DNA of 64,000 nt. It comes from Sodalis ligni (GTDB lineage: Bacteria; Pseudomonadota; Gammaproteobacteria; Enterobacterales; Enterobacteriaceae). Made by a program: the position numbers and the translations under genes. The notes beneath the pieces were generated by a model that had not been told where the DNA came from, ran no database searches, and saw nothing but the letters and a program-made list of their open reading frames with translations. The stretch's first letter is position 1. Each line of letters begins with the position of its first letter. The DNA lies in contig NZ_CP075169.1 of NCBI RefSeq assembly GCF_016865525.2, forward strand, positions 2,232,337-2,296,336, read 5' to 3'. Below are positions 20,247 through 34,392 of this stretch, piece by piece.

Positions 20247-20561
20247 TTACAACGCTGCCAATGTATGCAAATTCTCTGGATTATGCGCAATCATTTTAAT
20301 AAGCAAGACAGCTTGGGCATTTGGTTTTGCTCTGCCTTGTTCCCAATTCTGATAGGTCGTGGTACCGGTGCGTAGATATTGAGCGAAAACTGACTGGGAC
20401 AAATGAAGCTTATCGCGGATTGCCTTCAGCTCATCGGGGCTCATCGAAGTATGTTTATTGATCGCGACACGATGGGATTTGAGGGTTATTTTGCCGGCGT
20501 TCATATCGCTCCACGCCTGCATCCCCTCGATAAGCTCATTAAAAATATCGCGCTTACTCAT
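20247..20561 (-). CDS. HTH antitoxin / regulator of a RelE-HigB type pair (NadS-like)
   Basis: 104 residues: an N-terminal stretch (RDIFNELIEGMQAWSDMNAGK) then a Cro/C1-type helix-turn-helix, LKAIRDKLHLSQSVFAQYLRTGTTTYQNWEQGRAKPNAQAVLLIKMI (about 45-91). Such proteins are encoded downstream of RelE/HigB toxins, neutralise them and repress the operon. The ATG overlaps the toxin gene's TGA by 4 nt, so toxin comes first. The antitoxin is intact while the toxin is broken in three places, so it is now free of its partner. Confidence 0.85.
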   Translation of the reverse strand: MSKRDIFNELIEGMQAWSDMNAGKITLKSHRVAINKHTSMSPDELKAIRDKLHLSQSVFAQYLRTGTTTYQNWEQGRAKPNAQAVLLIKMIAHNPENLHTLAAL

Positions 20562-23201: not shown

Positions 23202-23490
23202 GTGGGTGCCAATAAAAAGAAACAAAAGGTCGTATTTCATAGAATTGTGAAGCTCCATGAAAATTTATTCTATATGCTGTTCGCTCCAGATGGCATTTAT
23301 ATTCTGGCTCGCTGTCCATTTCCTCCGGCTCTTTTGTCGAGGACGATCACCCATTACTCAGATATGCTCTACAGTATGAAAACCTCGGAAGGAGAGGGAT
23401 ACGTCTATTGCCGCATCGAGCACAAGTCCAGCGCGGACGAGATGATGGCGTTTCGCCTGCTGCGCTACAGCATGGCAGCCAGGGGCCTGA
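23202..23490 (+). pseudogene. Rpn-family (PD-(D/E)XK recombination-promoting nuclease, YhgA-like) remnant
   Basis: [43 protein letters not shown] (from about 23352) is the diagnostic core of Rpn proteins, including the IEHKS active-site region. Upstream, HENLF and, in another frame, SGSFVEDDH fit the family's N-terminal part but need frameshifts and a deletion. After YSMAA the reading leaves the family. What remains is under a third of the ~300-residue protein. Confidence 0.7.
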
Positions 23491-23570
23491 TAAATATTTT
23501 ATGTACTTTTTTTACACTTTTGCGAGTATTTTAAGGACAAATAATTCGCAAGATTGAAAAAGGCACAGGT

Positions 23571-24055
23571 ATGTTAGTCCCTATAAAAGGTCACGGAAAA
23601 GAATTTGAGGCTTATCGGACCCTATTTATTCATGAATATGAAATGGATTTGGTACGGAATCACAAGCTCAACGACTATGACGCCCATGAAAAAGCAGTCA
23701 ATATCATCGATTCTTCATTTTTGGCTGAGGCCGGGAAAAATAACAATGTCTTATACCGTATCGTAAAAAGCCTTGAGGGTGCCCAGCATAACGTGGGATA
23801 TATCTGGATTTTGTCTTCTGCGAAGGATAATACCGCATTCATCATGGATTTCTATATCTTGCCAGAGTATCGAAAGCAAAGGCTGGGGACCGAGGCCTTG
23901 ACGGAACTCTTCTATCAGCTGGCGCAAAACGGTAATACCGCCATTACGTTACGCGTAGATCCGGATAATCTGGCGGCGCATAATCTCTATAAAAAGTGGG
24001 TTTTGCCGTTACCGGTATCAATATGGCGAGAAAACTAAACAGCGCTGCCTTCTAG
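23571..24055 (+). pseudogene. GNAT N-acetyltransferase with C-terminal frameshift
   Basis: The ORF gives 155 residues. GNAT motif A is visible (FIMDFYILPEYRKQRLGTEALTELF, about 100-125), as is motif B (ITLRVDPDNLAAHNLYKK). After LYKK the frame ends in WVLPLPVSIWREN. Restoring one lost G near 23996 (AAAAAG-TGGG) gives VGFAVTGINMARKLNSAAF with a stop at 24055, the usual GNAT ending. Substrate unknown. The break touches only the last strand, so either a real lesion or a homopolymer error is possible. Confidence 0.65.
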
Positions 24056-24696
24056 TTCGTTTTTCACGTTCTGAATTTTGCTACCTGCGGCATTCGCCCT
24101 GGCCCGCCCCCTTTTCCTCCGACGTTGGAACGGTACGGACGTGCCCCGCATGCCGTCAAACTCGCTTTCCCCGCTGCCAAAGACCGGCGCCCGCCGGCAC
24201 AGCCACCTGGGCAAAATCGGTCCCGAGTCCTTTGAACGAGCCTCATCGTGAGGACAGGATCTGTCCATGATTTCGGGGGCAGTCCAGTTGCGATCGGGAA
24301 AAGCGTCGCCGCGTGATATAAGGCCGCTTTTTATCGGCAAAAATCGGCTACATTCTCTGAGTATAACCATATAAGAAGAAGGGTTTTTACGCTCTGCCGC
24401 CGTATCTGAAAAGCCGTTGCCCGGATGCCCTGTCCCGGCGGCGCTGTCTCTTTCAGCGGCGGGGAGAGGGACATGAAAGCGTCTGCCGGTCTTCCCTTGG
24501 GGTTATAACCCGCAGGGGATAGAGGGGAAACGGGACATTAGTTTCGTATGATGTATTAAGGTCTTGTGAGTGTAGCCGGTAGCCTAAACGTATTTAATGT
24601 AACGCAGAGATACGATATCAAAACGTGATGTTTTATAAAGGCGCCGCCGCAGGTTAGCACGGCTTAATATATTACCCACCCTACAGACAAGTCATT
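24056..24696. other. 641-bp intergenic region upstream of the oxidoreductase operon
   Basis: No gene that I can support. A 111-codon minus-strand ORF (24370-24035) has no recognisable domain and a composition like translated intergenic DNA. The last ~150 bp (about 24540-24690) is AT-richer and holds the expected promoter of the large oxidoreductase gene. I did not find a convincing FNR or ArcA site by eye. Confidence 0.4.
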
Positions 24697-27600
24697 ATGA
24701 AAAACAATAAAGTGAAATATCCAGGCATTCCCAGTGTGATTCATGGCAATGGTGCTGTTGCCTATATCATGAATCACGTTTGTGGCGGCGTTATCGGTTA
24801 TCCCATAACCCCGTCGACGGAAATTGCAGAGATTTTCGAAGCCGCCCGCGCAGAGGGCGGCGTCAACGTCTGGGGCAAGCATCCGTTTTTCTTCAGCCCG
24901 GAAGGGGAGCATTCGGCCCAGAGCGGTGCGCTCGGGGCGGCATTGACCGGCGGGCAATACATCTCGAACGCCTCGTCAAGCCAAGGCATTCTTTATGCGA
25001 TGGAATCCCACTACGTCACGGTGGGCAAGAAGGTGGGAGGTTTTGTACTGCAGGTGGCGGCGCGGGTGGTGTCAAAACATTCGTTAAACGTGATGGCCGG
25101 CCATGATGATGTCTACGCGCTGCTCCCGTCCGGATACACTATCCTTTTCGGCGCGAATCCCCAGGAAGCGGCGGATCTGGCGGCCATAGCCTACCGGGTC
25201 TCTTCACTGTCCCTCATTCCGGTCGCCAACGCCATGGACGGATTTTCCACCAGCCATATGCTGTGCGAAGCGCTGCTGCCGGAGCCGGCGCTGTTGGCGG
25301 AATATCTGGGGGACCCGGCCGGGCGCATCAAGGCGCCGACCGCGGCGCAGGAGATGCTCTATGGCGCCAAAGGCCGCGTATTTCAGCTTAAAGCGTACCT
25401 CTCCCGTCACCAGGCGGACATTGCCGCCGATGAGCGGACTATGCTGCAAAGCTATCTGGAGCTTCACGCGGAATCCATCGAACAGGATTTGCAAGGCTTC
25501 CTGATGGCGCCGACCCTGGACTGGCTGCCCGCTGAACTGCATGCTCCCTGGCGGCGGCAGTGGCTGAACGCCTTTGAACGGGGTACCCGGCAGCGAGTGC
25601 CGGCGTTAATCGACGTCAATAATCCGGGTCTGACAGGCGGGGTGCAGAACCAGCCGGATTTCCAGGCCGGGTCGGCGGATCACCGCACTCATTTCGCCAG
25701 CGACGTGCCGGCGCTGGTGCGTCAGGCGATGGCGGAATACGGCGAGTTGACCGGACGCCGCTACCAGCCGGTGCAGACCTTTATGTGTGAAGACGCCGAG
25801 GACGTCATGGTGGCGCTGGGATCCGTTACCGATGACATCGAAGCCGTGGTGGCGTATCTGCGCCGCCAGGGACAAAAAGTGGGGCTGGTGGCCGTTAAGC
25901 TGCTGCAGCCATTCCCGGAAGCGGAAGTGGTGGCGGCCCTGCGGGGCAAGCGGGCCGTGACGGTGCTGGAACGTTCCGATCAGACGGAACTCACCGTCCG
26001 GGTGACCCGTGCCCTGTTCCAGGCACGGGAAAATGCCGATGGGGTGCGCCACGCGGGAATTCCCGCTCTCCAGTCCATGCCGACGCTTACCACCGCCATT
26101 TTCGGCCTCGGCGGGCACGATTTGCAGCCGCGGCATTTGATTGCCGCCTTCAAAAATATGTCGGACGGGCAGGGTGCGCCTTTGATCTATCTGGGTTCAC
26201 AGTTCTTCTCCCCGACGCCGTCCCCCTATTTGGATAAACTCCAGGCGCGCCTGAAAGGGGCATATCCTGAAACCGAACGGATGGCGCTTAATACCGGGCC
26301 GAACCCGAATTTGTTGCCGGAGGGCGCTTTCCGTATCCGTTTCCACTCGGTGGGGGGCTATGGCACCATCGCCACCGGTAAACTGTTAACCGACATTCTG
26401 GCGGGCGCTTTGGACATGCACTCCAAATCGGCGCCGAAATACGGTTCGGAAAAGAGCGGCGCGCCCACCAATTATTACATCACCCTCAGTCCGGAGCCGG
26501 TAAAAATCACCAATGCTGAATTGGAAGATGTGGAAATCGTTATTTCGCCGGATCATAAGGTCTTTAGTCATACCAACCCCCTGCGCGGTCTGACGTCCGG
26601 GGGCACGTTTATCATGCAATCCAATCTTGCTCCCGAAGAGGTTTGGCGGGAATTGCCGGCTTCGGCCCGCAAGACCCTGCGGGACAAGGCTATCCGTTTT
26701 CTGATAATCGATGCGTTTGCCGTCGCAAAAAAACACGCGCCGACGCCGGAACTGGAAACCCGCATGATGGGCATCGCCTTTATCGGCGCGGTGGTGGGGC
26801 ATGTGGAGCGGGTCTCGGCGGGATCATCCGCCGCCGCCATCCTGGCGAAAATCCGCCAGCAAATCGGCAAGAAGTTCGGCGCGAAGGGCGGCGCGGTGGT
26901 TGAAGGCAATATGGCGGTAATCCACGACGGCATTGCAGCTACCCAAAGCGTCGATTACGCCTCGGCAGAATTTGCCGATGCCGACGGCCAACGGCTGTCG
27001 GCGAATCCGTATGGGCTGTCGTTGTCCGCCGATGGGGAACACTCGGCACAAACATCGGTGCTGAACGGTCTTTTCGACCATGACTATTATGAAGAAACCG
27101 TCGCGCGTCCCTTCCGGGAAGGCACTATCGGCGAAGCGCCGGTATTGCCCGGCGCCGGGCTGTTTATGCCCGCCGGCACCGCGAGCGCGAAGGATAAAGG
27201 ACTGTTCCGCCGTTCCGTGCCCGAGTTTCACGCCGAGGCATGCACCGGCTGTATGGAGTGTGCGCTGGTTTGTCCGGATGCGGCGATTCCGAATTCGGTA
27301 CATGATATCCATGAACTGCTGCTGGAGGGTATCCGCCGCCTCGGCCTGGCCGAAAGCCGGCGCGAGGCCATGGCGGCACATCTTTATCCGCTGGCGGATG
27401 CGGTGCGGGAAACCTATCGTCAAAGCAAAACGCCGCGGCCTTTTCATGAAGTCGTCGCCGATGCGGCGGCGGGTCTGGTCATCGACGCGGCGGCCCTGCG
27501 AACCGACTTTGCCAAACTGGCCGACGTACTGGCGGCCTATCCCGTCGCGCGGACCCGTCCGTTCTTTGATGCGGCGGAAAAAAACGGTACCGGCGGCGGC

Positions 27601-29685
27601 CTGTATGCCGCCGTTATCGATCCGTGGAAATGCACCGGTTGCCTTGAATGCATCAGCGTCTGCGGGCCCGGCGCGCTGAGTGAGCGTTCCCAGGATGCGC
27701 CGTTGCAGCAGACTCTGCAGGCCCGTTTCGAATTTATGACCACGCTGCCGAAAACGCCGGCGCGTTTTTATGCCGACGCGCTCAAGCCCGATGGCGACAT
27801 CAAGCGGCTGCTGCTTGATCCCGGTAATTATTACGCCACCACCGGCGGCCACGGCGGGTGCCGCGGCTGCGGCGAGGTAACGGCCATCCGTTTGGTGGTA
27901 TCCGCCAACCATGCCGTCACCCATAAGCGTCAGCAGGATCACCGGCGGGAGCTGGAAGACCTTATTTCCCGTCTGAACGAAAAACGGAGCGCGCTGCCCG
28001 CTATCGAAGAAATCCGGCGCGAGCGCCTGGACGGTCTTATCGGCACGCTGGAAAAAAGGCTGTATCTCTACGAAGGCGGCCCCGGCGGCAATGGCCCGGC
28101 GGGGGCCGGTATCGCCAATTCCACCGGCCTGCGCAGCGGTTACGCCTCGACCTTCCCGTACACCTGCTATAACGATCCTTGGGTCAACAGCCTGTTCCAG
28201 GATGCCCAGCCCCTGGCCAAAGGGATGTTCGAAGGGCTTGCCGCGCAGTCGGTGAACGATATCCGCGCGCTGCGCCTGGCCCGTCTTGAACTGGCGGATC
28301 AATACCTGCCGGAGCAGCACGATGCGGCGCTCCGCTACCTGGACTGGACCGGCTTCACCGCTGACGAACTGGCCCTGCTGCCGACGGTCATGACCATCGG
28401 CGGAGACGGCGCCACCTACGATATCGGTTTTGGCGCGCTATCGCGCATTTTAACCAGCGGCACGCCGCTCAAGGTAGTAGTGCTCAATACCGGCGTATAT
28501 TCCAATACCGGCGGCCAGGCCTCCACGTCCAGCTTTATCGGCCAGGACGCCGACCTGGCCCGTATCGGCAAGGCCCAGGGCGGCAAGCATGAAGCGCGCA
28601 AGGAACTGGGATTGATTGCCTCCTTCCATCCGGATGTGTTTGTCTGTTCCAGCACCACCGCGCTGCCGGGGCACTTCCTCAAAAATACGCTGGAGTTCCT
28701 CCGCTATAGCGGGGGACCGGCGGTGATGGATATCTATACCCCTTGCCAGAGCGAACACGGCATTACCGACGCCGCCGCCGCCCGGCATGGCCGGCTGGCG
28801 GTGGAAAGCCGGATGAACCCGGTGTTTGTGCACGATACGCGCCGCGGCGCTTCACTGCACGAGTGGTTCTCCCTGGAGGGTAATCCCGATACGGACAAGG
28901 ATTGGGCCGGCACCACCCTGGAATACCTTGATGAAAACGGCGGATTGCAACTGCTCAACATGGCGCTGACGCCGGCGGTCTTCGCCCTGGGGGAAAACCG
29001 CTTCAGGAAGCAATTCCATGCTATCGATAATACCGATGGCCGGTCTACGGTGGCGGTGGAGGACTATATCGATCTACCGCCGGATGAACGGGCGCAAAGC
29101 ATTGCCTTTGTCTATTCCGTTGACGCCAATCGGCATCTGATCAAGCTGGGTGTCTCGCCGTCCCTCATCGAACTGGTGGAAGAGCGGCGTAAGTACTGGC
29201 GGATGCTGCAATATCTTGCCGGCCAGCATGCCGGGAAAATGGCGGCTGAACATGATGCCGCCATCAGTGCGCTACAGTCGCAATATGAGGCTTCCCTGCG
29301 GCAACAGGACACGGCCATGGACGTCATTGCCCGCGCCATGTCCCGGCTGGCGACATCCAGCAAGGCGCCGGCGGCGGGCGCCGGTACCATTCCCATCAGT
29401 ATGGTGGACGATGCTTCATCCCCCGGCGCGTCTCCCGCGGCCGCGGCCGGCGGCGAAGTGCCGGTAACGCTCTCCCCGGAAGATCAGGAGAAATGCACCA
29501 ATTGCAAAACCTGCTATCAGGATTTGCCCGAGATCTTCGAAAGAACCCTGGTGGCTTTCAACGGTGAAAGCCGGGAAGTCGCCCATATGATCCCCGGCGT
29601 GCTGGAACGCATAACCATCACGCCGGAGCTGAAACGCCGTATTGAACGGGTGGCGGCCAACTGCGATGCGGAGATCATACAATGA
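24697..29685 (+). CDS. Giant pyruvate:ferredoxin oxidoreductase-like protein with extra C-terminal ferredoxin domain
   Basis: 1662 residues, against ~1170-1200 for NifJ. PFOR-type domain order is visible. The N-terminal domain has YPITPSTEI from Tyr35. A gamma-type domain starts near 545 (FHSVGGYGT). Two [4Fe-4S] motifs follow: Cys849/852/855/859 (CTGCMECALVC) and Cys979/982/985/989. The TPP domain has CRGC at Cys1055/1058, GDG at 1236-1238 and NTGVYSNTGGQ from Asn1264. Unusual parts are a ~90-residue insert between the two cluster motifs, a long helical stretch after the TPP domain, a low-complexity Ala/Pro linker (about 1560-1590), and a terminal ferredoxin-like domain with Cys1600/1603/1606 and Cys1656. 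Expected reaction: 2-oxoacid + CoA to acyl-CoA + CO2, with electrons passed to the C-terminal cluster. Its stop overlaps the next start (ATGA), so partnership with the flavoprotein is strongly implied. Substrate may not be pyruvate. Confidence 0.88.
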   Translation: MKNNKVKYPGIPSVIHGNGAVAYIMNHVCGGVIGYPITPSTEIAEIFEAARAEGGVNVWGKHPFFFSPEGEHSAQSGALGAALTGGQYISNASSSQGILYAMESHYVTVGKKVGGFVLQVAARVVSKHSLNVMAGHDDVYALLPSGYTILFGANPQEAADLAAIAYRVSSLSLIPVANAMDGFSTSHMLCEALLPEPALLAEYLGDPAGRIKAPTAAQEMLYGAKGRVFQLKAYLSRHQADIAADERTMLQSYLELHAESIEQDLQGFLMAPTLDWLPAELHAPWRRQWLNAFERGTRQRVPALIDVNNPGLTGGVQNQPDFQAGSADHRTHFASDVPALVRQAMAEYGELTGRRYQPVQTFMCEDAEDVMVALGSVTDDIEAVVAYLRRQGQKVGLVAVKLLQPFPEAEVVAALRGKRAVTVLERSDQTELTVRVTRALFQARENADGVRHAGIPALQSMPTLTTAIFGLGGHDLQPRHLIAAFKNMSDGQGAPLIYLGSQFFSPTPSPYLDKLQARLKGAYPETERMALNTGPNPNLLPEGAFRIRFHSVGGYGTIATGKLLTDILAGALDMHSKSAPKYGSEKSGAPTNYYITLSPEPVKITNAELEDVEIVISPDHKVFSHTNPLRGLTSGGTFIMQSNLAPEEVWRELPASARKTLRDKAIRFLIIDAFAVAKKHAPTPELETRMMGIAFIGAVVGHVERVSAGSSAAAILAKIRQQIGKKFGAKGGAVVEGNMAVIHDGIAATQSVDYASAEFADADGQRLSANPYGLSLSADGEHSAQTSVLNGLFDHDYYEETVARPFREGTIGEAPVLPGAGLFMPAGTASAKDKGLFRRSVPEFHAEACTGCMECALVCPDAAIPNSVHDIHELLLEGIRRLGLAESRREAMAAHLYPLADAVRETYRQSKTPRPFHEVVADAAAGLVIDAAALRTDFAKLADVLAAYPVARTRPFFDAAEKNGTGGGLYAAVIDPWKCTGCLECISVCGPGALSERSQDAPLQQTLQARFEFMTTLPKTPARFYADALKPDGDIKRLLLDPGNYYATTGGHGGCRGCGEVTAIRLVVSANHAVTHKRQQDHRRELEDLISRLNEKRSALPAIEEIRRERLDGLIGTLEKRLYLYEGGPGGNGPAGAGIANSTGLRSGYASTFPYTCYNDPWVNSLFQDAQPLAKGMFEGLAAQSVNDIRALRLARLELADQYLPEQHDAALRYLDWTGFTADELALLPTVMTIGGDGATYDIGFGALSRILTSGTPLKVVVLNTGVYSNTGGQASTSSFIGQDADLARIGKAQGGKHEARKELGLIASFHPDVFVCSSTTALPGHFLKNTLEFLRYSGGPAVMDIYTPCQSEHGITDAAAARHGRLAVESRMNPVFVHDTRRGASLHEWFSLEGNPDTDKDWAGTTLEYLDENGGLQLLNMALTPAVFALGENRFRKQFHAIDNTDGRSTVAVEDYIDLPPDERAQSIAFVYSVDANRHLIKLGVSPSLIELVEERRKYWRMLQYLAGQHAGKMAAEHDAAISALQSQYEASLRQQDTAMDVIARAMSRLATSSKAPAAGAGTIPISMVDDASSPGASPAAAAGGEVPVTLSPEDQEKCTNCKTCYQDLPEIFERTLVAFNGESREVAHMIPGVLERITITPELKRRIERVAANCDAEIIQ

Positions 29686-32534
29686 GCAGCGAAAACACGA
29701 TTTCATCAACGCAGGAAGGTTCGCCGCAGAGCGTATTGCACCGCTATCTCAAGGCCGGCAGCGCGCTGGAAAATACGCGCGCACAGCTGGAGGCGCTGGA
29801 ACAGACGGAGCCGGTGGAGACCTACCACCGGCAAATGGAGCTCCTGGGCCGACGGCTGCAAAACGATCCGCGGGTTTTTCGCGACATGTTCATCGCCGAC
29901 GGGACCGAGGCGGTGGCCTGGGAGTTCCGGCAGGAGGAACTGGGCGCTGAATTTACCCATGTCTTATGGGAACTGCTATTGCGGGACGATGACGCCAGCA
30001 AGGTGCTGATGCGTTTTATCTGGGATGTTCCCCTGAAGCTCAAACGTAAATTCATTCGCGCCCTTGACCGGCATCTGTCGCAGAGATATCCGGTGTTCCT
30101 GGGATTGTCGGATAACTGGCCGGCGGAAAACGCCATTCCGCCCTATATTCGTGACCCGCAGCTGCGCGCGCGGGATTTTGAACTGGTGAATCAGGGTTAC
30201 CTCGGGTATATGAATGTGGGCTACAGCGCACGGGAAGTGGAACTGCTGGTCTGGCTCGAAGCGCTGCGCGACAAGCAGTGCGAGGAAAAACCCTGTGAAG
30301 TCGGTCTCGCGGAGCCCGGCCGGCCGGAGCCCAAAGGCGGATGCCCGGTAAAAATCCATATTCCGCAAATGCTCAGCCTGCTGGGTACCGGCCGCTTTCG
30401 CCAGGCCATGGAGTTGATACAAAGCTGCAATCCCCTGCCCAACGTCACGGGACGGGTCTGCCCGCAGGAGTTGCAGTGCCAGGGGGTATGCACCCACCAA
30501 AAGCGGCCGATTGAAATCGGCCAGCTTGAATGGTATCTGCCCCAGCGGGATAAGCTGTTCGCCGGCGGCGGCGAGGATTCCCTCCCGCCTTCCGATCCCT
30601 GGCTGCAGGCGGTGAAGCCCCCTATCGCGGTGGTGGGTTCCGGGCCCGCCGGACTGATAAATGCCTATCTGCTGGCGGCGGAGGGATTTCCGGTGACGGT
30701 GTTCGAAGCGTTCCACGCCCTGGGCGGGGTGTTGCGGTATGGCATTCCGGAGTTCCGGCTGCCCAATGAACTGATTAACGATGTGGTGGACAAGATAACG
30801 CTGCTGGGGGGCAGATTTGTCACCAATTTTGTGGTGGGTAAAACCGCCACCCTCGAAGATCTGAAGAACGCCGGATTCTGGAAGATTTTCGTCGGCACCG
30901 GCGCCGGGCTGCCGCGCTTTATGAACGTGCCCGGCGAGCATCTGCTTAACGTGATGTCGGCCAACGAGTTTCTCACCCGCGTCAACCTGATGCAGGGGGC
31001 CCGTGAAGGCTATGAAACGCCGCTGCCGGAAATACGCGGCAAGCGGGTGATGGTTATCGGCGGCGGCAATACCGCTATGGATGCGGCCCGTACCGCTCTG
31101 CGCCTGGGGGGCGACGTTACCATCGTCTATCGCCGCACCGAGAGTGAAATGCCGGCGCGGGTGGAAGAGCTGCGGCATGCGCAGGAGGAGGGCATTGTGC
31201 TCAAGGTCCTGCGCGCTCCCTGCGAGTTTATCGGCGACGATAAGACCCATTTCGTCCGGCAGGCCATGCTCGATGTCATGGCCCTGGGGGATCCGGATGC
31301 CTCCGGCCGCCGCAGCCCGGCGGCCACCGGTGAGAAAGAGCCTATGGCGGTGGATCTGGTGATTATGGCCCTGGGCAACTCCCCCAATCCCATTATCAAA
31401 GACGCGGAGCCGGATCTGCATACCACCCGCTGGGGCACCGTCGAGCTTGGCCGGGGCTCGCAGCAAACCTCCCTCGACGGCGTATATTCCGGGGGCGATG
31501 CGTCGCGGGGAGGTTCCACCGCCATCAATGCCGCCGGCGACGGCCAGGCGGCGGCCCGTGAAATTCTCGGCGACATGAACCTGTCCGCCGGGGATATCCG
31601 GTCCAGGGTAAGCCTGGCCGGGAGCTACTCCAAGCTGGGCGCCGCCCCGAAAACCATTCTGGAGAAAATTGAACTGGCGGAGGGTATCGTCGAGTTTATC
31701 GTCCATGCGCCGCATATCGCCCGCGCCGCCCGCGCCGGACAATTTGTCCGCGTACTGCCGTGGGCCAACGGCGAACTGATCCCCCTGACCCTGGCCGACT
31801 GGGATGCGGAGAAAGGCACCCTCTGCCTGGTGGTGCAGGGGCTGGGCAGCAGCAGTATGGCGATTAACCGGATGCAGGTAGGGGATGCCTTCGCCGGCAT
31901 CGCCGGTCCTCTTGGCCGGCCCAGCGTCCTGCACGCCTATGGGACCGGCGAAACCGTGGTGTTCCCCGCCGGCGGCGTCGGCCTGCCGCCGGTCTATCCC
32001 ATTATGCGGGAGCATTTACGCGCCGGTAACCATGTCACGCTTATTGCCGGTTTCCGCAATGATTCCCTGCTGTTCTGGACCCGCGGCGACGAACGCATCG
32101 GCAAGCTGCAGCAGCGTTATCCGGGATTGCTGGACGTCATCTATACCAGTAACGACGGCAGTTACGGCGTCAAAGGCTTCGTCACCGGCCCCTTGGAAGA
32201 GCTGCTTAAAGCCAATCGGCAAGGGAGCGGCAGGGAAATAGCCGAAGTCGTCACCATCGGCCCGCCGCTGATGATGCGTGCTGTGTGCGACTTGACGCGC
32301 ACGTACGGCGTCAAGACCGTTGCCAGTCTGAACTCCATCATGGTGGATGCCACCGGCATGTGCGGCGCCTGTATGGTGCCGGTAAACATCGACGGCCGGC
32401 TGGTGCGCAAACACGCCTGTATCGATGGCCCGGAAATCGACGGACATCTTATCGACTGGGACAAGTTCCTGCCGCGTTTTAATCAATTCAGCGCGCAGGA
32501 GCTGGCCAGCAAACGGCGGCACGGCTTCGCGTAA
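29682..32534 (+). CDS. NfnB/GltD-like and NfnA/SudB-like fused NAD(P)H:ferredoxin oxidoreductase with novel N-terminal region
   Basis: 950 residues. About 1-205 is helical and not recognised. From about 205 comes the GltD-type iron-sulphur segment (GGCPVKIHIPQML with Cys221, then NPLPNVTGRVCPQELQCQGVC). It is followed by FAD-binding VVGSGPAGL (about 319) and NAD(P)-binding VIGGGNTAMDAARTAL (about 456). From about 645 it reads like NfnA/SudB: FAD-binding AGQFVRVLPW, NAD(P)-site AGGVGLPPVYPIMREH, and a C-terminal [2Fe-2S] segment, MVDATGMCGACM with Cys894/897 and Cys913 in HACIDGPEIDGH. In Nfn, separate A and B subunits bifurcate electrons between NADPH, NADH and ferredoxin; here they are one chain. 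It is translationally coupled to the giant PFOR, so it probably moves electrons between that enzyme and NAD(P). Which pyridine nucleotide, and whether it bifurcates, is not readable. Confidence 0.87.
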   Translation: MSSENTISSTQEGSPQSVLHRYLKAGSALENTRAQLEALEQTEPVETYHRQMELLGRRLQNDPRVFRDMFIADGTEAVAWEFRQEELGAEFTHVLWELLLRDDDASKVLMRFIWDVPLKLKRKFIRALDRHLSQRYPVFLGLSDNWPAENAIPPYIRDPQLRARDFELVNQGYLGYMNVGYSAREVELLVWLEALRDKQCEEKPCEVGLAEPGRPEPKGGCPVKIHIPQMLSLLGTGRFRQAMELIQSCNPLPNVTGRVCPQELQCQGVCTHQKRPIEIGQLEWYLPQRDKLFAGGGEDSLPPSDPWLQAVKPPIAVVGSGPAGLINAYLLAAEGFPVTVFEAFHALGGVLRYGIPEFRLPNELINDVVDKITLLGGRFVTNFVVGKTATLEDLKNAGFWKIFVGTGAGLPRFMNVPGEHLLNVMSANEFLTRVNLMQGAREGYETPLPEIRGKRVMVIGGGNTAMDAARTALRLGGDVTIVYRRTESEMPARVEELRHAQEEGIVLKVLRAPCEFIGDDKTHFVRQAMLDVMALGDPDASGRRSPAATGEKEPMAVDLVIMALGNSPNPIIKDAEPDLHTTRWGTVELGRGSQQTSLDGVYSGGDASRGGSTAINAAGDGQAAAREILGDMNLSAGDIRSRVSLAGSYSKLGAAPKTILEKIELAEGIVEFIVHAPHIARAARAGQFVRVLPWANGELIPLTLADWDAEKGTLCLVVQGLGSSSMAINRMQVGDAFAGIAGPLGRPSVLHAYGTGETVVFPAGGVGLPPVYPIMREHLRAGNHVTLIAGFRNDSLLFWTRGDERIGKLQQRYPGLLDVIYTSNDGSYGVKGFVTGPLEELLKANRQGSGREIAEVVTIGPPLMMRAVCDLTRTYGVKTVASLNSIMVDATGMCGACMVPVNIDGRLVRKHACIDGPEIDGHLIDWDKFLPRFNQFSAQELASKRRHGFA

Positions 32535-32748: not shown

Positions 32749-34140
32749 ATGGCTTATGCAACCAAGAATCCTTTTACCGGCCAGGTAGTGAAAACCTTTC
32801 CCGACGCAACCGATGAAGAAGTGTTGACTGCTATAGAGCATGCGCACAAAGCTTTTCTCTCCTGGAAAGACCAGTCTTTCCAGGCGCGTAGTAAAATCAT
32901 GCAGCGCGCCGCGGATATTCTGCGCGACAACAGCGAGCGTTACGCCAAAATCTTGACCCTGGAAATGGGGAAGATACTGTCCGAGGCGAAAGCCGAAGTG
33001 GAACTGTCGGCGCAAATTTTCGAGTTTTACGCCAACAATGCCGAAACCCTGCTGGAACCGGAAAAACTCACCGTAGCGAAACCCGAAGAAGCGGAATCGG
33101 TGGTTTATCATGAGCCGCTGGGCGTGCTGCTGGCCATCGAACCCTGGAATTTCCCCTATTACCAGATAGCCCGTATCATTGCGCCGCAGCTTTCAGCCGG
33201 GAATACCCTGCTGTTGAAGCATGCCTCCAACGTCCCCCAGGCGGCGGCTATTTTTGAGCAGCTTATGCATGAAGCGGGATTGCCGGACGGCGCGTTTACC
33301 AATCTGTATGCCACCCGCTCGCAGATCGAGCTTATCCTTAACCATCCCCATGTCCAGGGCGTGGCGCTGACGGGCTCGGAAGGCGCCGGCGCGCTGGTGG
33401 CCCAGCAGGCGGCGAAGGCACTGAAAAAATCCACTCTTGAACTGGGCGGGGCGGATGCCTTTATTGTCCTGGCGGATGCCGACATGGAGCCTACGGTGAA
33501 ATGGGCGGTCTTCGGACGGCATTGGAACGGCGGCCAGGTGTGTGTTTCATCTAAACGCATGATCGTGGTTGACGACGTCTATGATGACTTCCTGACCCGC
33601 TATACCCAAGGCGTGGCGGCGCTGCGCGCCGGCGATCCCTTGCTGGAAACCACCACCCTGGCGCCCTTGTCGTCGCAGGAAGCCGCCGATGAGGTGAAAC
33701 AAAAAATCCGGCTGGCGGTGGAACATGGCGCTACCGCCACGGAAGTCGGCCCGAAGGTCCCTGCGCAGGGCGCGTTTGTTCAGCCCACCATCCTGACCAA
33801 CGTGGCGGAGGATAACCCGGCCTATTCCATGGAATATTTCGGCCCGGTCTCCATGATCTTCCGTGCCGAAGACGAGGACGATGCCCTGCGCATTGCCAAT
33901 GATTCCCCCTTCGGCCTGGGCGGCTCGATATTTACCGCTGATGCCAAGCATGGGGCGGAATTGGCGCGGAAATTCTCCACCGGCATGGTTTATATCAACC
34001 ATCCCACCCGGGTGAAAGCGGACCTGCCGTTCGGCGGCGTTCGGCGCTCCGGCTATGGACGCGAGCTTATCGGGCTCGGCATCAAGGAGTTCGTTAACCA
34101 CAAGCTGGTGTCGGTGGTGGATATCAACGCCGAGTTTTAA
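32749..34140 (+). CDS. Aldehyde dehydrogenase, succinate-semialdehyde type (Sad/YneI-like)
   Basis: 463 residues, close to E. coli Sad (YneI). Opening: MAYATKNPFTGQVVKTFPDATDEEV. Cofactor region EPWNFPYYQIARIIAPQLSAGN; catalytic Glu231 in STLELGGADAF; catalytic Cys265 in GGQVCVSSKR; C-terminal PFGGVRRSGYGRELIGLGIKEFVN. It oxidises an aldehyde, most likely succinate semialdehyde, with NAD(P)+. It lies 214 nt downstream of the PFOR/NfnAB pair on the same strand with its own leader. Whether it is functionally linked to them (for example succinyl-CoA or semialdehyde flow) is speculation. Confidence 0.88.
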   Translation: MAYATKNPFTGQVVKTFPDATDEEVLTAIEHAHKAFLSWKDQSFQARSKIMQRAADILRDNSERYAKILTLEMGKILSEAKAEVELSAQIFEFYANNAETLLEPEKLTVAKPEEAESVVYHEPLGVLLAIEPWNFPYYQIARIIAPQLSAGNTLLLKHASNVPQAAAIFEQLMHEAGLPDGAFTNLYATRSQIELILNHPHVQGVALTGSEGAGALVAQQAAKALKKSTLELGGADAFIVLADADMEPTVKWAVFGRHWNGGQVCVSSKRMIVVDDVYDDFLTRYTQGVAALRAGDPLLETTTLAPLSSQEAADEVKQKIRLAVEHGATATEVGPKVPAQGAFVQPTILTNVAEDNPAYSMEYFGPVSMIFRAEDEDDALRIANDSPFGLGGSIFTADAKHGAELARKFSTGMVYINHPTRVKADLPFGGVRRSGYGRELIGLGIKEFVNHKLVSVVDINAEF

Positions 34141-34178
34141 CCCGTCCGTTAACAGTCCCGCCACCTTCACAGCGGAGC

Positions 34179-34201
34179 CGGCCAATAGCCTCTATTGGCC
34201 G
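34179..34201 (+). terminator. Terminator-like hairpin, copy 1
   Basis: CGGCCAATAG (34179-34188) and CTATTGGCCG (34192-34201) pair perfectly over 10 bp with loop CCT, 39 nt after the aldehyde dehydrogenase stop. It is followed by GGGTTTGTTG, a weak U-tract. The same hairpin occurs again at 34365. Confidence 0.6.
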
Positions 34202-34244
34202 GGGTTTGTTGACAAAGTGTCCGGTCGGGGCAGGCTACCAGATC

Positions 34245-34364: not shown

Positions 34365-34392
34365 CGGCCAATAGCCTCTATTGGCCGGCTTT
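34365..34392 (+). terminator. Rho-independent terminator, copy 2
   Basis: The same 10-bp stem as at 34179 (CGGCCAATAG / CTATTGGCCG, loop CCT), here followed by GCTTTTTAA, a proper U-tract on the plus strand. It likely ends transcripts from the aldehyde dehydrogenase gene before the convergent minus-strand cluster. Confidence 0.7.

Follow-up and report, generated by a model that had tools for sequence, protein, structure and literature searches.

The window, a stretch of 64,000 nucleotides from Sodalis ligni, carries two adjoining genes that, with a probability of about 0.7, encode a dedicated 2-oxoacid:NADP+ oxidoreductase, pyruvate being the most likely substrate. The first gene (24697..29685, + strand) encodes a giant PFOR of 1662 residues (P0001), identified from its open frame, Pfam and NCBIfam scans and its relatives. 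The second (29682..32534, +) encodes a 950-residue fused NfnB-NfnA-like protein (P0002), identified by the NCBIfam family NF009415/PRK12779. As described in the original prediction, both frames are open on the + strand and overlap by 4 nt in the sequence ATGA (29682..29685, +), which holds the PFOR stop and the Nfn start. A GGAG lies 8 bases 5' of the Nfn start, within the 3' end of the PFOR gene. Relatives of both proteins along their length are found in other genomes at 55-88% identity, and this conservation excludes chance open reading frames; the closest named relative cluster is 'Sodalis sp. RH15', at 99%. The pair is real, conserved and functionally suggestive, its parts being of known types and the coupling of PFOR to Nfn hardly studied. 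The GC content of the two genes is 61-62%, compared with 57.3% for the whole window, and their GC3 values (70.9 and 75.1) fall inside the range of the measured neighbours (66.7-75.9), so there is no case for recent transfer. An origin as a plasmid gene was rejected for the Nfn protein, the one searched, which has no match at 1e-100 in 72,556 plasmid records.

The domain search proposed in the original prediction gave a clear picture of the first protein. Pfam finds POR_N, PFOR_II, POR, 4Fe-4S and TPP_enzyme_C domains on a single chain, as in the OFOR superfamily, followed by a C-terminal Fer4_15. The thiamine-binding POR_N domain (residues 32-208; 24790..25320, +), placed by Pfam and by comparison with the Desulfovibrio africanus PFOR, contains YPITPS and R123. 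Pfam also delimits the POR (gamma) domain (residues 553-746; 26353..26934, +) and TPP_enzyme_C (residues 1230-1279, with GDGATYDIG; 28384..28533, +). Between them lie the ligands of two 4Fe-4S clusters, one of Cys 849/852/855/859 and the other of Cys 979/982/985/989, separated by an insert (27241..27663, +). The protein shares OFOR-core domain order and cluster ligands with NifJ/PFOR (TIGR02176; D. africanus 1b0p, Moorella 6cin), but it is only about 26% identical, some 490 residues longer than the Sodalis NifJ (1175 aa) and has an extra ferredoxin. It scores 367.8 bits with the NifJ equivalog TIGR02176, against a cut-off of 911.35. Relative to NifJ it carries inserts of 72, 59 and 58 residues, plus smaller ones. 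An ordinary NifJ is also encoded in the same genome, in an open frame of 1214 aa.

In a PFOR tree, calculated without the wrong-strand open reading frame canon_L109, the giant PFORs form two clades, A, which includes the window copy, and B. Clades A, B and the canonical PFORs each occupy one side of a branch with support of 99-100. Clades A and B lie together beyond a long canonical branch (quick method, midpoint root), and to call them sisters would assume a root on that branch. Clade B proteins are about 36% identical to clade A, compared with about 26% for canonical PFORs. The eight Cys of the two clusters named above are conserved in 134/134 clade A rows and 12/12 clade B rows, the former comprising 120 search matches, 13 loci and the window, with some genes present twice. 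All twelve Cys that, by comparison with the Sodalis NifJ, we take to bind the three OFOR 4Fe-4S clusters are kept in 133 of the 134 clade A rows and in all 12 of clade B. Equivalents of D. africanus Thr31 (in YPITPS), Arg114 (R123) and Asn996 are present, as in pyruvate-using OFORs; this assignment rests on those three residues, without Ala219 and Met1202, and the Asn996 equivalent was placed by a motif common to NifJ. A passage of PMC5020499 gives Thr31 and Arg114 as contacts of the pyruvate carboxylate and Asn996 as a pocket residue. The position of D. africanus Ile843 is Val in the giant PFOR family and Gly in the window copy.

The trait that sets the giant PFORs apart is their C-terminus. 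The tethered ferredoxin (residues 1596-1662; 29482..29682, +) has Cys 1600, 1603, 1606 and 1656 within its Fer4_15 match, four residues that every clade A row (134/134) and every clade B row (12/12) contains and NifJ lacks. Its length is the same throughout each clade, 67 aa in A and 53 aa in B. It is preceded by a linker rich in Ala/Pro/Gly/Ser/Thr (residues 1555-1595; 29359..29481, +), whose length varies in the family, from 36 to 52 aa in clade A and from 28 to 44 in clade B. These five residues make up 60-63% of the linker, 63% in clade A, and a long helix stands before it. Such a composition is that expected of a flexible tether. The ferredoxin arm is deduced from this composition and not from the structure models, whose confidence is medium to low: the mean pLDDT is 65, and residues 1543-1662, linker and ferredoxin, fall below 50. 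New in the giant PFOR family is that the OFOR cluster ligands are retained while a ferredoxin of 67 aa with one cluster is added, on a linker rich in Ala and Pro and of variable length.

The one clade A row lacking a cluster ligand is the window copy itself, which keeps 11 of the 12 Cys expected of a catalytically complete PFOR. Codon 1145 (28129..28131, +), which we assume to specify a ligand of the proximal cluster, encodes Leu; the residue is Cys in the other 133 rows, including both other Sodalis loci. Leu1145 belongs to a knot of changes: 5 of the 16 differences from the 99% identical relative (residues 1138, 1145, 1146, 1148 and 1156) sit in residues 1138-1156 (28108-28164). Either the sequence is locally wrong, through sequencing or assembly, or the loss of Cys1145 is genuine. 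In the second case the PFOR of this genome could be a decaying pseudoenzyme devoid of its proximal cluster, a reading compatible with the explanation preferred here for the family. Leu1145 and the concentration of changes around it speak for decay, whereas both genes are full-length open frames and such a tight cluster of changes fits a local error equally well. We regard decay as a serious possibility, if one with the odds against it. The conclusions drawn at family level are independent of Leu1145.

The second protein contains Fer4_20, Pyr_redox_2 (GltD/NfnB-like), NAD_binding_1 and DHODB_Fe-S_bind (the latter two NfnA-like), in line with the fusion that had been proposed. It scores 1731.6 bits with NF009415/PRK12779 over residues 16-950, above the cut-off of 1519. 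Its N-terminal domain (residues ~15-195; 29724..30266, +) has no Pfam match at E 0.001 and is all-helical in the structure model. A fold search with the Nfn model left this domain unplaced, the top 50 rows being Nfn, glutamate synthase and DPD relatives; these roughly 195 residues are a candidate for the PFOR-binding part. The Fer4_20 region follows (30270..30530, +), and then the NfnB/GltD-like FAD/NADP domain (residues 315-621; 30624..31544, +) and the NfnA-like FAD/NAD domain (residues 658-945; 31653..32516, +). All 34 rows compared share the motif YRR..EMP.R, presumably part of the NADP site. The 2Fe-2S ligands D889, C894, C897 and C913 are those of canonical Nfn (Asp and three Cys) and occur in 132/132 rows, as do the 3 Cys and Glu (C221, C260, C266 and E283) of the proximal 4Fe-4S cluster. 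The distal cluster departs from the four Cys of canonical Nfn: D197 takes the place of the first Cys in all 132 rows, beside C200, C205 and C270. We assign these residues to distal and proximal clusters by analogy with Nfn and DPD, and assume on the same grounds that the distal cluster is the ferredoxin docking site. Two more distant proteins (L032 and L033), both below the NF009415 cut-off, have Cys at the D197 position. The invariant D197 makes the protein an Nfn-like variant and not a canonical Nfn, and an invariant Asp for one Cys in the probable distal cluster of a fused Nfn is new here.

Among solved structures, P. furiosus NfnI matches both halves best. The fused Nfn resembles the NfnSL enzymes of P. 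furiosus and T. maritima, from which it differs in being one chain with the NfnB part first, in its N-terminal helical domain and in D197. We hypothesize that the giant PFOR oxidises pyruvate with CoA on thiamine diphosphate, and that single electrons would pass along its three 4Fe-4S clusters and on to a fourth, in the tethered ferredoxin. This arm would swing on its flexible linker to the fused Nfn and deliver them to the distal cluster with its Asp, after which NADP+ would be reduced by the FAD of the NfnB half. The NfnA half, with FAD and 2Fe-2S, may feed in electrons from NADH (confurcation); the net reaction would then perhaps be pyruvate + CoA + NADH + 2 NADP+ -> acetyl-CoA + CO2 + NAD+ + 2 NADPH. 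Against this explanation count the Asp of the distal cluster, the ligand Cys lost in this genome, the nearness of the NfnB half to Xfn and the rarity of the pair.

Some of these points bear on whether NADH takes part at all. Plain NADP+ reduction would do without confurcation if the NfnA half were structural only or docked another carrier, as in Xfn. PfNfnII (Xfn, 5vj7) is the precedent, since Nfn-like pairs reportedly need not use NAD(H). The NfnB half hardly separates the two models (353 bits to NfnI, 343 to Xfn), and the distal-cluster Asp is unusual. The NfnA half, by contrast, favours NfnI, with 228 bits against 131 for Xfn, and its 2Fe-2S ligands are invariant. We consider plain NADP+ reduction rather unlikely, while confurcation stays a conditional part of the preferred scheme.

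The neighbourhood survey that had been suggested shows that the two genes belong together. PFOR and Nfn are adjacent and co-directional at 15/15 loci, and at 17/17 distinct loci once L121 and the window are included; L122 repeats L005 and is counted once, eight of the 17 come from one genus and two from Tropicimonas. G582, where both genes are broken at contig ends, was left out of this count. The ATGA overlap recurs in Sodalis (L005), Tropicimonas (L006 and L007), a Propionibacteriaceae MAG (L008) and Cohaesibacter (L009), and at most other loci the chosen starts leave up to about 50 nt between the two genes. In 398 genomes of the phylum, the nine with a full-length PFOR (E<=1e-100) are the same nine with NF009415 above cut-off, eight of them from one genus; two further genomes have a distant giant PFOR only and two others a distant Nfn-like match only. 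NF009415 occurs in 3 of 197 genomes of the order, with PFOR adjoining in all three, and PFOR in 3 of 6 genomes of the genus, again with Nfn adjoining in each. Moreover, PFOR and Nfn distances co-vary (Mantel r = 0.971 over 14 selected pairs, a value reached in 0/2000 permutations); two of these pairs were matched by name and contig size, and the shared ancestry of the genomes adds to r. As a hint only, at least 29 of 120 listed PFOR clusters have a longest contig equal in size to that of one of 120 listed Nfn clusters.

These data weigh against the idea that the two are mere neighbours, the PFOR working with free ferredoxin or flavodoxin and the Nfn on the common pool. NifJ-type PFORs behave in this way, and the genome has a NifJ besides. 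Linkage at all 17 loci, the co-varying distances, the ferredoxin built into the PFOR and the presence of PFOR wherever NF009415 scores above cut-off in the samples of 398 and 197 genomes make it very improbable. The proposal of a dedicated NAD(P)-coupled pair is to this extent borne out, by the linkage, the conserved cofactor residues of the NAD(P) flavoprotein and the built-in ferredoxin, while complex formation is still put forward as likely. The supposed enterobacterial character of the system did not hold, and an enterobacteria-specific system was rejected: only those 3 of 197 genomes of the order have NF009415, and relatives occur in other classes. Full-length relatives of PFOR, Nfn or both come from Sodalis, Brenneria, Paludibacterium, Rhodocyclales, Sulfuritalea, Rhodoferax, Tropicimonas, Cohaesibacter and the Propionibacteriaceae MAG. 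The spread takes in Alphaproteobacteria and an actinobacterial MAG; Rhodocyclales and other Betaproteobacteria are included on the strength of protein names only.

Clade B provides a second view of the tethered ferredoxin. At E<=1e-60 the giant PFOR has matches in 26 of 369 genomes of the class, namely the genome studied and G582, the only two clade A cases, and 24 others. Four of the 24 (G500, G594, G612 and G693) have open frames of about 660-690 aa and could represent enzymes of two subunits. They lie outside the 12 clade B neighbourhoods analysed, of which 10 come from the 24 and two from the phylum sample. Rnf genes, located with L071 proteins that NCBIfam confirmed as RnfB, C, D, G, E and A, stand beside the PFOR at 12/12 loci. 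The order is rnfB-PFOR-rnfC-D-G-E-A at nine; L082 keeps it as far as its contig reaches, to rnfE, in L063 rnfB is shifted to the far end of the cluster, and in L081 the contig ends after rnfB-PFOR. No Rnf match at 1e-8 was found at the 15 clade A loci or the NifJ locus (9-21 kb each). With rnf beside all 12 clade B PFORs examined, each clade of giant PFORs is paired with an NAD(P)-linked partner of its own, which is likewise new here. Two related PFOR clades with a common arm, each with its own ferredoxin:NAD(P) module, are the strongest argument, a comparative one, for dedicated coupling. It is tempting to propose, at slightly less than even odds, that giant 2-oxoacid dehydrogenases with their own swinging ferredoxin, the principle of the lipoyl arm carried out with an iron-sulfur cluster, form a modular class whose members plug either into a confurcating Asp-cluster fused Nfn, yielding 2 NADPH, or into the ion pump Rnf. 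If coupling to Rnf is true, pyruvate oxidation would be directly ion-motive. As a separate observation, an FNR/PetH-like ferredoxin-NADP reductase, below family cut-offs, ends one clade B rnf-PFOR cluster (L070:1518-2372), and proteins of similar start are present in L063 and L065.

The Rnf arrangement has a precedent in the Solemya velum symbiont, where a PFOR between rnfB2 and rnfC2 was noted in 2014, in the passage of PMC4287430 concerned. The position, which is what was compared, is that of clade B here; the partner in both is the membrane pump Rnf, while that of clade A is Nfn. In the parts of an Rnf review consulted (PMC12174285) the term 'PFOR' is absent. The layout of the fused Nfn had been thought unusual; forms of this layout are in fact already described, and it is their detailed properties that are uncharacterised according to the abstract of a 2019 review (PMC6405883). 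Our protein is like Pattern C of that review (Mobiluncus curtisii type), with the NfnB-like part first, the NfnA-like part last and about 200 extra residues; we equate Pattern C with NF009415/PRK12779 by layout and not by the M. curtisii sequence. Pattern C is given there for Actinobacteria and Alpha- and Gammaproteobacteria. In the passages on Pattern C neither a PFOR neighbour nor the distal-cluster Asp is discussed; PFOR is named once in the review, in a gene-order figure legend, and such a neighbour may be drawn there. In the open-licence PMC literature, a scope outside which most subscription journals fall, we found no study of a PFOR-Nfn pair.

A two-gene counterpart of the pyruvate:NADP+ oxidoreductase (PNO) had also been proposed. 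In the Euglena and Cryptosporidium enzymes a CPR-type reductase is fused to PFOR. The pair would likewise wire pyruvate oxidation to NADP+, but its reductase is a separate chain of the Nfn type. Homology to PNO was rejected: neither protein has Flavodoxin_1 or FAD_binding_1 (Pfam, E 0.001), and NAD_binding_1 is present only in the separate Nfn chain.

The direction of the reaction has to be considered too. In an NADPH-driven pyruvate synthase, the Nfn would split 2 NADPH into NADH and low-potential electrons, which would reach the PFOR through the tethered ferredoxin and there drive the reductive carboxylation of acetyl-CoA. The Nfn cofactor residues are retained, and OFORs are reversible enzymes. 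The neighbourhood says little either way: the only downstream neighbour traced, an aldehyde dehydrogenase (32749..34140, +; identified by NCBIfam, terminator scan and neighbourhood comparison), recurs solely in Sodalis dw_96 (L005/L122; 95% identity) and was not found in 15 further stretches, of which a few break off shortly after Nfn. We judge synthesis improbable and keep oxidation as the preferred direction. The dehydrogenase, whose best NCBIfam match is NADP-dependent succinic semialdehyde DH, below cut-off, is possibly co-transcribed with the pair here, being on the same strand with no + terminator-like site listed before it.

If the preferred reading is true, the low-potential electrons of pyruvate bypass the free ferredoxin pool and reach a chosen acceptor through a covalent arm. 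This could explain PFOR chemistry in facultative or aerobic proteobacteria. A likely substrate and partner would then also be at hand for the fused Nfn that is known, but uncharacterised, from proteobacteria and actinobacteria. It could also provide engineering with a ferredoxin-free route from pyruvate to NADPH.

Scans of the window found 32 FNR boxes (<=2 mismatches) against a mean of 23.2, a count reached in 4 of 100 shuffles, and none of them in 24039-24696. Promoter-like sites number 6 (4.5 expected) and terminator-like sites 16 (12.2 expected). A terminator-like palindrome lies 3' of the aldehyde dehydrogenase gene (34178..34202, +). Two identical 23-bp palindromes stand behind this gene, 186 bp apart (34179-34201 and 34365-34387), with no further copy in the window at <=3 mismatches. 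Upstream of the pair, a short ORF with a partial Transposase_31/YhgA-like match (23202-23534) is probably a remnant, and an MqsA-like HTH antitoxin (20247-20561) is adjoined by a small ORF that has no Pfam match.
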